In this document: positions 9,994-19,492 of the stretch, piece after piece | Numbering within the stretch: the first letter of the stretch is position 1 | Layout: every line of letters starts with the position of its first letter | IMG/VR virus record: IMGVR_UViG_3300027771_000124 | Span: 1-21,283 of that record | Length of the DNA stretch: 21,283 nt | Origin: a virus | Direction: 5' to 3' (one strand) | Notes under the pieces: generated by a model | The model's database searches: none | The model's input: the letters and a program-made list of their open reading frames with translations, nothing else | What the model was told of the DNA's origin: nothing | Position numbers and translations under genes: made by a program

Positions 9994-10956
9994 TTAAGAA
10001 GTTTTAATTTCTACGGCACACTCAGGACGTAGGATACCGTGGCCCATTGCGTACTTAGCAGCCATCAACGTACCTTGGTACATGACTTCAAAGTCGCCAG
10101 ATGTGCGCTCTACGGCTAGGTCCATCAACTTAACTGTACCGATTGCAGATTTCTGCATAACCAGTGCGGCTGTAGTTGAGAAGTTACCGGAGTAAGTGTT
10201 GTTCTCGCCAGATACTGCAGCTACGTTAGTTGTTGGCAGGTTGTTAGTCTTAACAATCTGAATACCAGCAACTTTAAGAACTGTACCTTCAGCGTATACA
10301 CCAGCTCCACCCCAGTCACGATTGATGACGGAAGTCTCTTGGACCAAGTTGTAATACTGTGCAGGAGCTACAAGTGCCACACGCTCGTTCTCAGGCACAT
10401 CTTTCTCGTCCAGAGCTTTTGCTGCGTCGAAGATAGCTGCAGCCAAAGCTGCGCCAGATGTCTTAGAAGTCGAGGAAACTAGAGCTGAACCGCCATTACC
10501 ACCAGTTACGGTAGCTGCTGAACGTGCGCCCAATAGACCTACGCGCATTGTGCGTGTGTCAAATTCTTTAGCCAAGGCCATACCCAACAAGCGGCTGTAC
10601 TCAGCGCGCACGTCATAATGATTTTTAGCCTCATCGATATTTGCAATAAATGTGTCAGCAATCAATACATCATCGATGTTGATAACGATTTCATTGTGAG
10701 CAATTTTCTGTGTACCCAACAAAGGTGTACCTACAGTGTGGTATGCAGCGTTAGCTTTACCTGTCACTGGGAAGGACGCTGACTTGCCGTTCGCGATTGT
10801 GCGAGAGACGTGCAGGTCTTTCATTACGTTTACTTCGTCAAAAGCGGTGAGAACTTCACCAGCGAAGACTTTTAGGAACAGAGCCGAAGCTGCTGCGTTA
10901 TTTGCTGGGGTCGCCTTATTGACAACACCCAAGCGTGATGCGGTTACATTTGTCAT
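9994..10956 (-). CDS. Major capsid protein, T7 gp10-like (HK97 fold)
   Basis: A 320-residue protein, slightly shorter than T7 gp10A (345), with clear matches throughout. ALFLKVFAGEVLTAFDEVNV matches T7 ALFLKVFGGEVLTAFARTSV. GKSASFPVTGKANAAYHTVG matches GKSAQFPVLGRTQAAYLAPG. NHYDVRAEYSRLLGMALA matches NHYDVRSEYTSQLGESLA. SAIGTVKLMDLAVERTSGDF and AKYAMGHGILRPE match SAVGTVKLRDLALE and AKYAMGHGGLRPE. It builds the icosahedral shell around the scaffold. The ATG has an AGGA site eight bases upstream. A roughly 190-base untranslated leader precedes it and a strong terminator follows at once, which marks it out as a separately tuned, high-expression unit. There is no room for a long frameshift extension of the T7 10B kind. 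Confidence 0.97.
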   Translation of the reverse strand: MTNVTASRLGVVNKATPANNAAASALFLKVFAGEVLTAFDEVNVMKDLHVSRTIANGKSASFPVTGKANAAYHTVGTPLLGTQKIAHNEIVINIDDVLIADTFIANIDEAKNHYDVRAEYSRLLGMALAKEFDTRTMRVGLLGARSAATVTGGNGGSALVSSTSKTSGAALAAAIFDAAKALDEKDVPENERVALVAPAQYYNLVQETSVINRDWGGAGVYAEGTVLKVAGIQIVKTNNLPTTNVAAVSGENNTYSGNFSTTAALVMQKSAIGTVKLMDLAVERTSGDFEVMYQGTLMAAKYAMGHGILRPECAVEIKTS

Positions 10957-11147
10957 TTTCTTTATCCTATGAAATTTTTATTTAGATTGAGAATGACTGT
11001 CGCTTACTACTTGTCAGGGTTGTCGGACGCATCCGGCCTAGTCGTTCATCGTTGATAGTCTCAGCCACCTAAAGAGGTGTGCTAGATGTTCTCGTGTCAT
11101 AGGAATTGACGGGACGTGGTTGATACCCAGCGCCCCGCCAGAGGTAG
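10957..11147 (-). other. Untranslated leader upstream of the capsid gene
   Basis: About 190 bases without a convincing gene, the longest non-coding stretch in the window. On the minus strand it holds two small hairpins: one with stem 11066-11070/11075-11079 (CACCT/AGGTG, loop of four) and one with stem 11024-11027/11032-11035 (CGGA/TCCG, loop of four). GTTGATA occurs twice on the plus strand (11051-11057 and 11119-11125). The last 40 bases before the capsid start are A/T-rich. I could not find a sigma-70 promoter with good -35 and -10 boxes and spacing. It may hold a phage- or host-specific promoter, an RNase processing site or a translation-enhancing leader. None is shown by the sequence alone. 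Confidence 0.45.
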
Positions 11148-11207
11148 TTACTTCTTCTTTGGTGGACGACCTACTTTTGTACCGTAAGTCCCTTTACCTT
11201 TAGGCAT
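11148..11207 (-). CDS. Tiny basic phage peptide (19 residues)
   Basis: A 19-codon gene encoding MPKGKGTYGTKVGRPPKKK, which ends in TAA. Peptides of the form MPKGKGTYG-KVGRPPKKK recur in many phages near capsid and portal genes, and that recurrence is my main reason for calling it. An excellent AAAGGAG ribosome binding site overlaps the scaffold stop codon and lies seven bases before the ATG. The peptide is strongly basic (seven Lys/Arg in 19), with a GRPPKKK tail similar to an AT-hook core (GRP). DNA or RNA binding is therefore conceivable, but no function is known to me. It is far below usual gene-calling length and easily missed. Confidence 0.8.
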   Translation of the reverse strand: MPKGKGTYGTKVGRPPKKK

Positions 11208-11218
11208 AATAATCTCCT

Positions 11219-11911
11219 TTAAAATACCGAAGAACGCCCCAGCTTTTCCTCTACATCTTTAGTATACGCAGAGTCCTTGCCGTATCGGGCGTCCTTCATT
11301 GCAGCTACAACTTCCGCTGTGCTACGGAACTCATCCTTGGATGGTGCCTGTGATTTTCCTGAGAGCAAGTTAGGCTCAGAGCCTTCCATAGCTTCTCGCT
11401 TAGACTGCAGCCATTCGACTGCCATCTTAGCATTATCAGTACCTGTCCCAACCATTTGGTTGTAGAGTTCAAGTTCATTGTTCTCGAGGCTACCTTTAGC
11501 CCATTCAGTTAACTCTTGATAACCGTCTTTACCGCCAGCGACTTCCATCACTGCATCTGCATCTGCTGTCTGAGCGGATTGCATACCCTTGATATAGGTT
11601 TCCACCATCTCTTTGGGGTAACCCATAGTCTCAAGTTCTGCGTAGCTTTCCTCGCCTAACTCACCAGAGCTAGAAAATTCCTCAGAGAACTTATCGAAAC
11701 TTGGTGGGTCACTTTTAGGTGCCTCAGTTTCAGGAGCAGCTTCATCGGCTGGACCTGATAGTTTCTTCTCAAGTTCACTGTAGGATTTTGCTAGGTCTTC
11801 GGGAGAGCTAAACTTTTCAGGCAACCATTCAGGACGTTCAGATTGGTTATCCTCCGCAACAGGTGCTTCTGGGCCAGTATCGTCTTCTGTGATTGTGATG
11901 CTTTCTGCCAT
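11219..11911 (-). CDS. Capsid assembly scaffold protein, T7 gp9-like
   Basis: A 230-residue, very acidic protein located between portal and capsid genes, the position of T7 gp9 (307 residues). Scaffolds guide procapsid assembly and then leave the shell. The N-terminal third is rich in Glu, Asp, Ser and Pro and probably disordered, with RPEWLPEKFSSPEDLAKSYS, a segment typical of podovirus scaffolds (PEWLPEKF-S-EDLAKAY-ELE). Then come helical segments and a C-terminal part with more basic residues (DARYGKDSAYTKDVEEKLGR), the usual capsid-binding end. There is no obvious ribosome binding site before the ATG. The upstream 46-residue ORF ends three bases earlier, which suggests translational coupling. 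The call is firm by motif, composition and position. Confidence 0.92.
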   Translation of the reverse strand: MAESITITEDDTGPEAPVAEDNQSERPEWLPEKFSSPEDLAKSYSELEKKLSGPADEAAPETEAPKSDPPSFDKFSEEFSSSGELGEESYAELETMGYPKEMVETYIKGMQSAQTADADAVMEVAGGKDGYQELTEWAKGSLENNELELYNQMVGTGTDNAKMAVEWLQSKREAMEGSEPNLLSGKSQAPSKDEFRSTAEVVAAMKDARYGKDSAYTKDVEEKLGRSSVF

Positions 11912-19093: not shown

Positions 19094-19492
19094 TTAGATT
19101 TTAATAAACTTAGGGATGTTGAAGGTGTGAACTTCACGATGACAATTGGCACAGAGGAGGTGACACTTATCGACTTCTGTTATTAGGTTGGTCCATGACC
19201 TCTGCATGTTAGATTGGGAGACCCCAAACCTTTTGAGCGTGTCATCGTAATGATGGAATTCAAATACATTGGGGTGGTATTCTTCATCACATCGTTCGCA
19301 CCGACCGCCCTTATAGGCGACCAGTTCTCGTTTTCGTTGGCGGACCATTTCTCGGACATAGATCGAGTTAGGATTTTTAGTGAGTGTCCGCCCAATTTGA
19401 ACCGACCTTGTACTCGCCTGTGATTGGACACCGGAACTTGAAGTGGTCTCCAGCGAGTTGAAAAGATTTAACTGCTTCTCTTCCAACGTCAT
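19094..19492 (-). CDS. HNH endonuclease, start nested in the DNA polymerase gene
   Basis: A 132-residue protein with a ββα-metal HNH fold. Zinc ligands are Cys65-x2-Cys68 (RCERC) and Cys114-x2-Cys117 (CANC). His80 and His81 (FEFHHYD) and the C-terminal NCHREVH (116-122) complete the active site. Such free-standing enzymes are frequent in phages, either as homing-type nucleases next to replication genes or in DNA processing. The ATG at 19490-19492 lies 116 bases inside the polymerase gene. I prefer it because AAGGAG (19500-19505) precedes it by seven bases, while the internal Met49 (19346-19348), after the polymerase stop, has only a weak site. The first 48 residues, Ser/Thr/Gln-rich, would then be translated from polymerase sequence in another frame. 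If the start is Met49, an 84-residue HNH core remains. Confidence 0.9.
   Translation of the reverse strand: MTLEEKQLNLFNSLETTSSSGVQSQASTRSVQIGRTLTKNPNSIYVREMVRQRKRELVAYKGGRCERCDEEYHPNVFEFHHYDDTLKRFGVSQSNMQRSWTNLITEVDKCHLLCANCHREVHTFNIPKFIKI

Follow-up and report, generated by a model that had tools for sequence, protein, structure and literature searches.

A widespread lysine-rich phage microprotein with a Gly-Arg-Pro core, and its gain and loss between the scaffold and capsid genes of T7-like marine phages

The question raised by this locus is whether an open reading frame for only 19 residues, lying between the scaffold and major capsid genes of a T7-like marine phage, is a genuine gene and, if so, what its basic product may do. 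The window, i.e. the whole 21,283-base virus record that was analysed, carries its genes on the minus strand and gave PHROGs matches to capsid, scaffold, portal, tail and PhoH proteins; its nearest named relatives are Roseobacter phages, e.g. CRP-114, with about 84% identity over scaffold and capsid. The peptide, MPKGKGTYGTKVGRPPKKK, here called P, is encoded on the minus strand (translation of the plus strand of 11148-11207 does not give it), and its ATG lies 11 bases past the stop codon of the scaffold gene (Table 1). An earlier note on this DNA had described a complete and well-placed 19-residue gene with a good ribosome-binding site, a description borne out by the exact translation and by the AGGAG found 6 nt from the ATG. 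Elsewhere in the window, a 132-residue ORF that overlaps the end of the DNA polymerase gene carries CxxC and HH patterns and, judged by eye from its translation, looks like an HNH-type endonuclease.

Table 1. Positions of P and of the other features discussed (window positions unless a locus is given)
Feature	Position	Strand	Basis or description
Gene of 19-aa peptide P, stop codon included	11148..11207	minus	exact translation and family conservation
Shine-Dalgarno (SD) AGGAG, 6 nt before P ATG	11214..11218	minus	sequence
Scaffold (head assembly) gene, directly upstream of P	11219..11911	minus	PHROG 1052, E 3.1e-53
Major capsid protein gene, downstream of P	9994..10956	minus	PHROG 267, E 9.5e-84
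Indel cassette (SD, P ORF and stop)	11148..11218	minus	present or absent between otherwise colinear relatives (alignment with L135, CRP-114, L172 and others)
Conserved, putatively structured leader ahead of the capsid gene, kept irrespective of P	11016..11081	minus	covariation, covariance-model hits
132-aa ORF overlapping DNA polymerase gene end	19094-19492	minus	by eye from translation
K family copies	L122:3758-3892, L129:2633-2767; same slot in several MCP loci		small basic protein, 44-49 aa
13-residue ORF in place of P	L157:700-740		ORF with SD
Lysis genes in the slot of phage ProddE	L123:2263-2907		annotation
95-aa basic neighbour of P, example	L297:12498-12785

Conservation and annotation of the P family

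The family to which P belongs has the consensus M-P-x-G-[K/P]-G-T-Y-G-x-K-x-G-R-P followed by a Lys-rich tail, and its members are mostly 18-50 aa long. A search of IMG/VR for the motif, the check that the earlier note had proposed, matched at least 120 contigs when a degenerate pattern of the full-length peptide was used. To avoid circularity, only part of P was fixed in further patterns. With MPYG[..]GTYG fixed and the rest left free, at least 120 IMG/VR contigs were found, and GRP was present in 120 of the 120 matches listed; across the full-length and N-terminal-only scans, GRP occupied residues 13-15 in 223 of 223 distinct sequences among the matches listed, with lysine at positions 11 (213/223), 17 (200/223) and 18 (182/223) and proline at position 16 (140/223). 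When residues 5-15 were fixed (at least 120 contigs), MPxG lay directly upstream in 97 of the 104 examined, the other seven comprising a truncated contig and variants that are altered or displaced by about one residue, and when MPxGPGTYG (Pro5) was fixed (at least 120 contigs) GRP stood at residues 13-15 in 117 of the 120 listed.

Serine 10 is encoded by both TCN and AGY codons, and arginine 14, within a GRP that is conserved even where the MPYG pattern left it free, by both AGR and CGN. Among 13 distinct P ORFs from relatives found via the capsid protein, differences at codon positions 1, 2 and 3 were 96, 135 and 471 (pairwise sums), and codon differences were synonymous in 395 cases against 159 non-synonymous. 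The codons thus vary while the protein does not, which indicates protein-level conservation rather than a chance ORF; by these sequence comparisons P is shown to be under protein-level selection and is confirmed as a real gene. The outcome named beforehand as fatal to the proposal was a peptide no better conserved than its nucleotides, and both the third-position variation and the partial-pattern scans came out in favour of P. Of 306 ORFs of the family, 253 are preceded by an SD-like sequence; for random ATGs the figure is 331 of 3057. The same 306 ORFs had a median length of 29 aa (35 in the Pro5 set), 30 of them being of 19 aa or fewer, and a median net charge per residue of +0.42. One locus (L148) has Gly6 of P changed to Asp. 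The G+C content of P loci had a median of 0.37 (range 0.29-0.56) and was no clear separator of R- and V-type members (medians 0.353 and 0.382).

P was read directly in CRP-171, P-SSP10, SS120-1 and P-SSP2, the P-SCSP1u copy is MPYGKGTYGSKVGRPP..., and further cyanophages and CRP-113 match P by DNA (blastn with short DNA). The pattern was not found in P-SSP7, Syn5, HTVC019P, P-SSM2, HTVC010P, SIO1, CRP-114, CRP-125 or ProddE, and one scan of 84,980 species genomes gave three contigs with P, all in metagenome-assembled genomes. That this is a recurrent phage gene missed by gene callers, as had been suggested, agrees with the absence of any CDS annotated over P in five of the six named phages read (CRP-171, P-SSP10, SS120-1, P-SSP2 and P-SCSP1u); the exception is HTVC115P, in which a P member (MPQGPGTYG...) directly after the portal gene is annotated as hypothetical protein gp73. 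PHROGs gave no match to six members, and NCBIfam none to the P head (six P members among ten proteins), its one sub-threshold hit falling on a C-terminus fused to the head. Pfam gave for the P head only sub-cut-off AT_hook and chance hits, with DUF6496 on a fused C-terminus, and a solved-structure search with P gave nothing meaningful (one match, E 3.4). A tblastn search of phages with a 29-aa member found no match, probably owing to the low-complexity filter, and it was blastn with short DNA that brought out the named carriers. A literature search with the strings KGTYG and GRPPKK returned, judged by titles and abstract openings, nothing on phage proteins. By these searches the P family is widespread, almost never annotated and outside Pfam, PHROGs and NCBIfam.

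The scaffold-capsid slot and the leader of the capsid gene

The window capsid protein retrieved 80 loci. Fifteen of these lacked a readable scaffold-capsid slot and were set aside, and the addition of the window and of three named phages brought the number of rows placed on a capsid tree to 69. Nine rows held P only, nine P with a second small basic protein, K, four K only, ten a 13-aa peptide and 37 none of these, so that P was present in 18 of 69 rows and not, as an essential head component should be, wherever the same capsid gene occurs. Alignment of the slot showed clean indels of the SD and P ORF between colinear flanks, and the locus L135 is without P though its capsid protein is 97% identical to that of the window. 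Mapped on this tree, the distribution of P requires at least nine presence/absence changes, seven of them on well-supported branches. Such repeated gain and loss in its own slot indicates from sequence that P is an accessory gene and no essential capsid part; its easy loss argues against structural necessity, and the capsid-stabilising role once considered for it is weakened by these clean exchanges between close relatives.

The K family (MAKKGLYANIHAKR..., phrog_16028) likewise comes and goes in the slot, alone or beside P, and a K module lies inside larger proteins in the PHROG profiles phrog_22379, 11180 and 28131. Co-occurrence of P and K is strong by count (Fisher p 0.0003; both in 9 rows, P without K in 9, K without P in 4 and neither in 47), yet the sign test on the tree gave a median p of 0.25, and it is therefore not claimed. 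The 13-residue ORF, M[PS]KKKPYGKGTKK, has an SD, has PYGKGT in common with P and replaces P in some relatives (L157 and similar contigs); it was rejected as a second tiny family, since 18 of its 19 matches follow the same scaffold end, in a single kind of slot, and the remaining one lies inside another reading frame. The slot also holds an ORF resembling a membrane protein in two loci (L200 and L201) and annotated lysis genes in Desulfovibrio phage ProddE, as if it were perhaps a general insertion site.

The stretch from P to the capsid gene contains a leader element that is kept with or without P. In an alignment of 20 sequences (19 distinct, chosen from 25) its two hairpins covary, with 97.7% of cells paired and 43 cells with both sides changed, and the covariation score was 0.667 against 0.174 +- 0.032 in shuffles; the second hairpin has an invariant TGCG loop, followed by GAYAAY. 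Folded as a single sequence, the leader was no more stable than shuffled versions (z 0.16), and the argument for structure is thus one of covariation. A covariance model of the leader (R1) matched in HTVC019P (E 8e-7), where the hit lies 60 nt ahead of the capsid gene, and at the corresponding place in SS120-1 (E 0.006); among the 16 named records searched, nine had no match at E<=1, and Syn5 and P-SSM2 gave weak matches only. Sequence matches thus place the leader in roseophages, in pelagiphage HTVC019P and probably in cyanophage SS120-1. Rfam gave no match at E<=1, no paper title returned by a literature search for structured RNAs in capsid-gene leaders concerned such an element, and the leader is possibly an undescribed structured RNA.

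Neighbours, fusions and likeness to AT-hooks

For 240 loci (scans 1 and 2), the immediate neighbours of P of at least 80 aa were set against those at positions drawn 2000 times at random within these loci; the loci are fragments and partly non-independent, and the figures are therefore enrichments, not exact probabilities. Four small basic families adjoined P at 78 of 240 loci against 22.2 expected, no draw being as high, and small basic neighbours overall numbered 111 against 39.1 expected, compared with 76 against 84.2 for small acidic and 115 against 85.1 for small near-neutral ones; the enrichment is specific to basic proteins. Head and packaging genes adjoined P at 47 loci against 47.0 expected, the major capsid gene at 12 against 11.3, the T7-type scaffold at 13 against 5.0 and the large terminase at six against 19.5, i.e. 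fewer than expected. A second set of 120 new loci gave 50 against 17.1 for the four small basic families, 61 against 24.8 for small basic neighbours overall, 21 against 6.4 for the scaffold, 46 against 29.6 for head and packaging genes and 3 against 4.2 for the capsid; DUF5872a, one of the four families, was not enriched there (3 against 1.6). The claim that such peptides recur next to capsid genes thus stands for the scaffold side in T7-like phages, in both sets, but not family-wide.

The neighbouring families comprise DUF6321 (E 2e-26), DUF5872-like proteins (E 5e-4 and 0.048, below cut-off) and DUF5754-like proteins. The commonest neighbour, at 46 loci, is a 95-aa basic family ending ..KSFKARHxxNIxKGKxSAAYWADKVKW, which resembles DUF5754/Tlr6F weakly: 20 of the 46 members match at E<=0.1, the best at 2.5e-5. 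Its predicted alpha/beta fold (mean pLDDT 82.9) had no PDB match at E<=0.001 and so gives no clue to function; solved-structure searches likewise gave no match for this family or for DUF6321. P was present in 0 of 10 named phages bearing the DUF5754-like family, so this association is not general. At 11 loci P adjoins a 92-aa gene (cluster 28), several having minus-strand genes downstream that include a RusA-like resolvase, and terminase, tail, endolysin-like and small basic genes are also among those next to family members, in many cases on contigs with no T7-type head gene in view. The P head is also found in fusions: with DUF6496 at the locus L265 and, in a 63-aa member of the second set, with a module that to the eye looks like gp30 of HTVC019P, which is that phage's own small basic protein in the scaffold-capsid slot.

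Most AT-hooks have a GRP core with K or R on the flanks, often with P (PMC11354804), a description that the P family fits at the residue frequencies given above. The Pfam AT_hook model (PF02178) aligns over the GRP segment in four members (L226, L212, L290 and L273), its gathering score of 17.4 bits never being reached (best 16.0 for L273; 14.8 for L226). These scans cover longer members, the window 19-mer being below the 20-residue minimum; nothing was obtained for L056, L012, L105, L059, L092 and L063 or for seven of ten further members, and none passed for L263, L265 and L025. The residue before GRP is Val in 113, Arg in 59 and Lys in 44 of the 223 sequences, the window copy having Val, and the RGRP of HMGA type is confined to a minority of the family. 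Thus the AT-hook likeness seen in the earlier note holds for the GRP core between lysines, but with scores below the Pfam cut-off and Val common before GRP we state a likeness and no membership; by analogy, and with moderate confidence, P may work like an AT-hook without being filed in that family.

Possible functions and comparison with known systems

P-family peptides probably bind DNA. Charge, size, the slot between head genes in T7-like phages and the basic company of P suggest a DNA-coating role, and our working hypothesis, which we hold tentatively and at somewhat less than even probability, is that P, as a cationic peptide, binds the minor groove of phage DNA late in infection and so aids condensation or packaging. 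P would be a translated accessory microprotein, intrinsically disordered and strongly cationic, and its strong ribosome-binding site, together with the slot between the scaffold and capsid genes, would have it made in large amounts late in infection. The invariant Gly-Arg-Pro core and flanking lysines would lie in the DNA minor groove in the manner of an AT-hook while the Lys tail would contact phosphates; P would so coat newly made phage DNA, help its condensation or packaging and possibly enter the virion. Against this reading stand the AT_hook scores below the Pfam cut-off, the frequent Val before GRP and the missing P in the ten named phages with the DUF5754-like family. The cryo-EM study of P-SCSP1u, a P carrier, likewise describes the capsid as major capsid protein only (PMC10575957) and mentions neither mass spectrometry nor small proteins in its main text, though a disordered peptide on DNA would escape view in such a structure. 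A broader proposal, to which we lean less and which we think rather unlikely, is that MPxG[K/P]GTYGxKxGRP is a widespread DNA-docking head, complete in fewer than 20 residues and grafted with Lys tails, DUF6496 or gp30-K-type modules, and that together with DUF6321, DUF5872-like and DUF5754-like proteins it would form a mobile small-basic-protein kit, some of it shared with giant viruses, for coating or condensing phage DNA.

P might instead act on the host and not on the virion, binding the host nucleoid, RNA or ribosomes for takeover or for shielding phage nucleic acid from defence, its late-operon place only setting the dose. Its free gain and loss in one slot (the at least nine changes over 69 rows) is typical of accessory genes, its places in the genome vary with no family-wide tie to head genes, and the 11 loci beside the 92-aa gene, several with the RusA-like resolvase downstream, fit such a role; we nevertheless regard it as unlikely, given that P is enriched immediately after the T7 scaffold gene in both sets of loci. 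That scaffold adjacency, together with the position directly after the portal gene in HTVC115P, would favour a head-assembly accessory that binds scaffold, portal or the inner face of the capsid and tunes assembly in T7-like phages. However, L135 does without P despite its near-identical capsid protein, and the occurrence of the family beside terminase, tail, endolysin-like and small basic genes, often with no T7-type head gene in view, makes this improbable as an account of P.

The motif could also be an N-terminal docking or targeting tag of several small phage proteins, the function of which would lie in an exchangeable C-terminal module. Its N-terminal position in the 97 of 104 examined, with only truncated, slightly changed or shifted exceptions, speaks for this, as does the variety of C-terminal parts, some being plain Lys tails and others DUF6496 or further modules, up to about 170 residues past the head; the window form and others, however, hold almost nothing past the head (the 30 of 306 ORFs noted above), and we give a mere tag a low probability. 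A short ORF with a strong SD between two head genes, followed by a conserved RNA leader, might suggest that P serves the capsid gene as a leader peptide or as a translational coupler, its amino-acid sequence being of no importance. This is contradicted by the conserved protein sequence with its synonymous drift, the same protein occurs in unrelated gene neighbourhoods and in longer fused forms, and the RNA leader is present whether or not P is; we consider it very improbable indeed. The P family, conserved and common in phage contigs yet absent from Pfam, PHROGs and NCBIfam and mostly unannotated, illustrates in a concrete case a layer of phage genes that goes missing. Its carriers include the cultured phages P-SSP2, P-SCSP1u, CRP-171 and HTVC115P, which makes translation, virion content and DNA binding directly testable, and some of the families found beside it, whose function has long been obscure, extend to giant viruses.

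The adenovirus mu peptide is a small basic viral DNA-condensing protein. P resembles such proteins in being tiny, highly cationic and encoded by double-stranded DNA viruses, and differs in having a conserved motif, not charge alone, and in that its DNA condensation is putative; protamine-like viral proteins are typically <15 kDa (PMC6163548). DUF5754/Tlr6F, DUF6321, DUF5872 and DUF6496 have neighbourhoods in common with P, DUF6496 occurring also in the fused protein, but no Pfam match ties the P head to them; Tlr6f is reported from PLVs, virophages, Megavirales and some phages, its function being unknown (PMC4642659). The K family is a small basic protein of the same scaffold-capsid slot, but has another sequence, is 44-49 aa long and is already a PHROG. 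In H-NS, an AT-hook-like Q/RGR inserts into the minor groove (PMC7074111), but it is a loop of a C-terminal DNA-binding domain, whereas P is a free peptide with putative DNA binding. With the AT-hook (PF02178; HMGA) P has in common the GRP core, flanking K/R and P, a length of 10-15 residues and expected disorder. It differs in being a single copy in a phage microprotein, in having Val before GRP in about half of the family, in scoring below the Pfam cut-off in the members tested and in its equally conserved N-terminal block, MPxG[K/P]GTYG, which is not described for AT-hooks.
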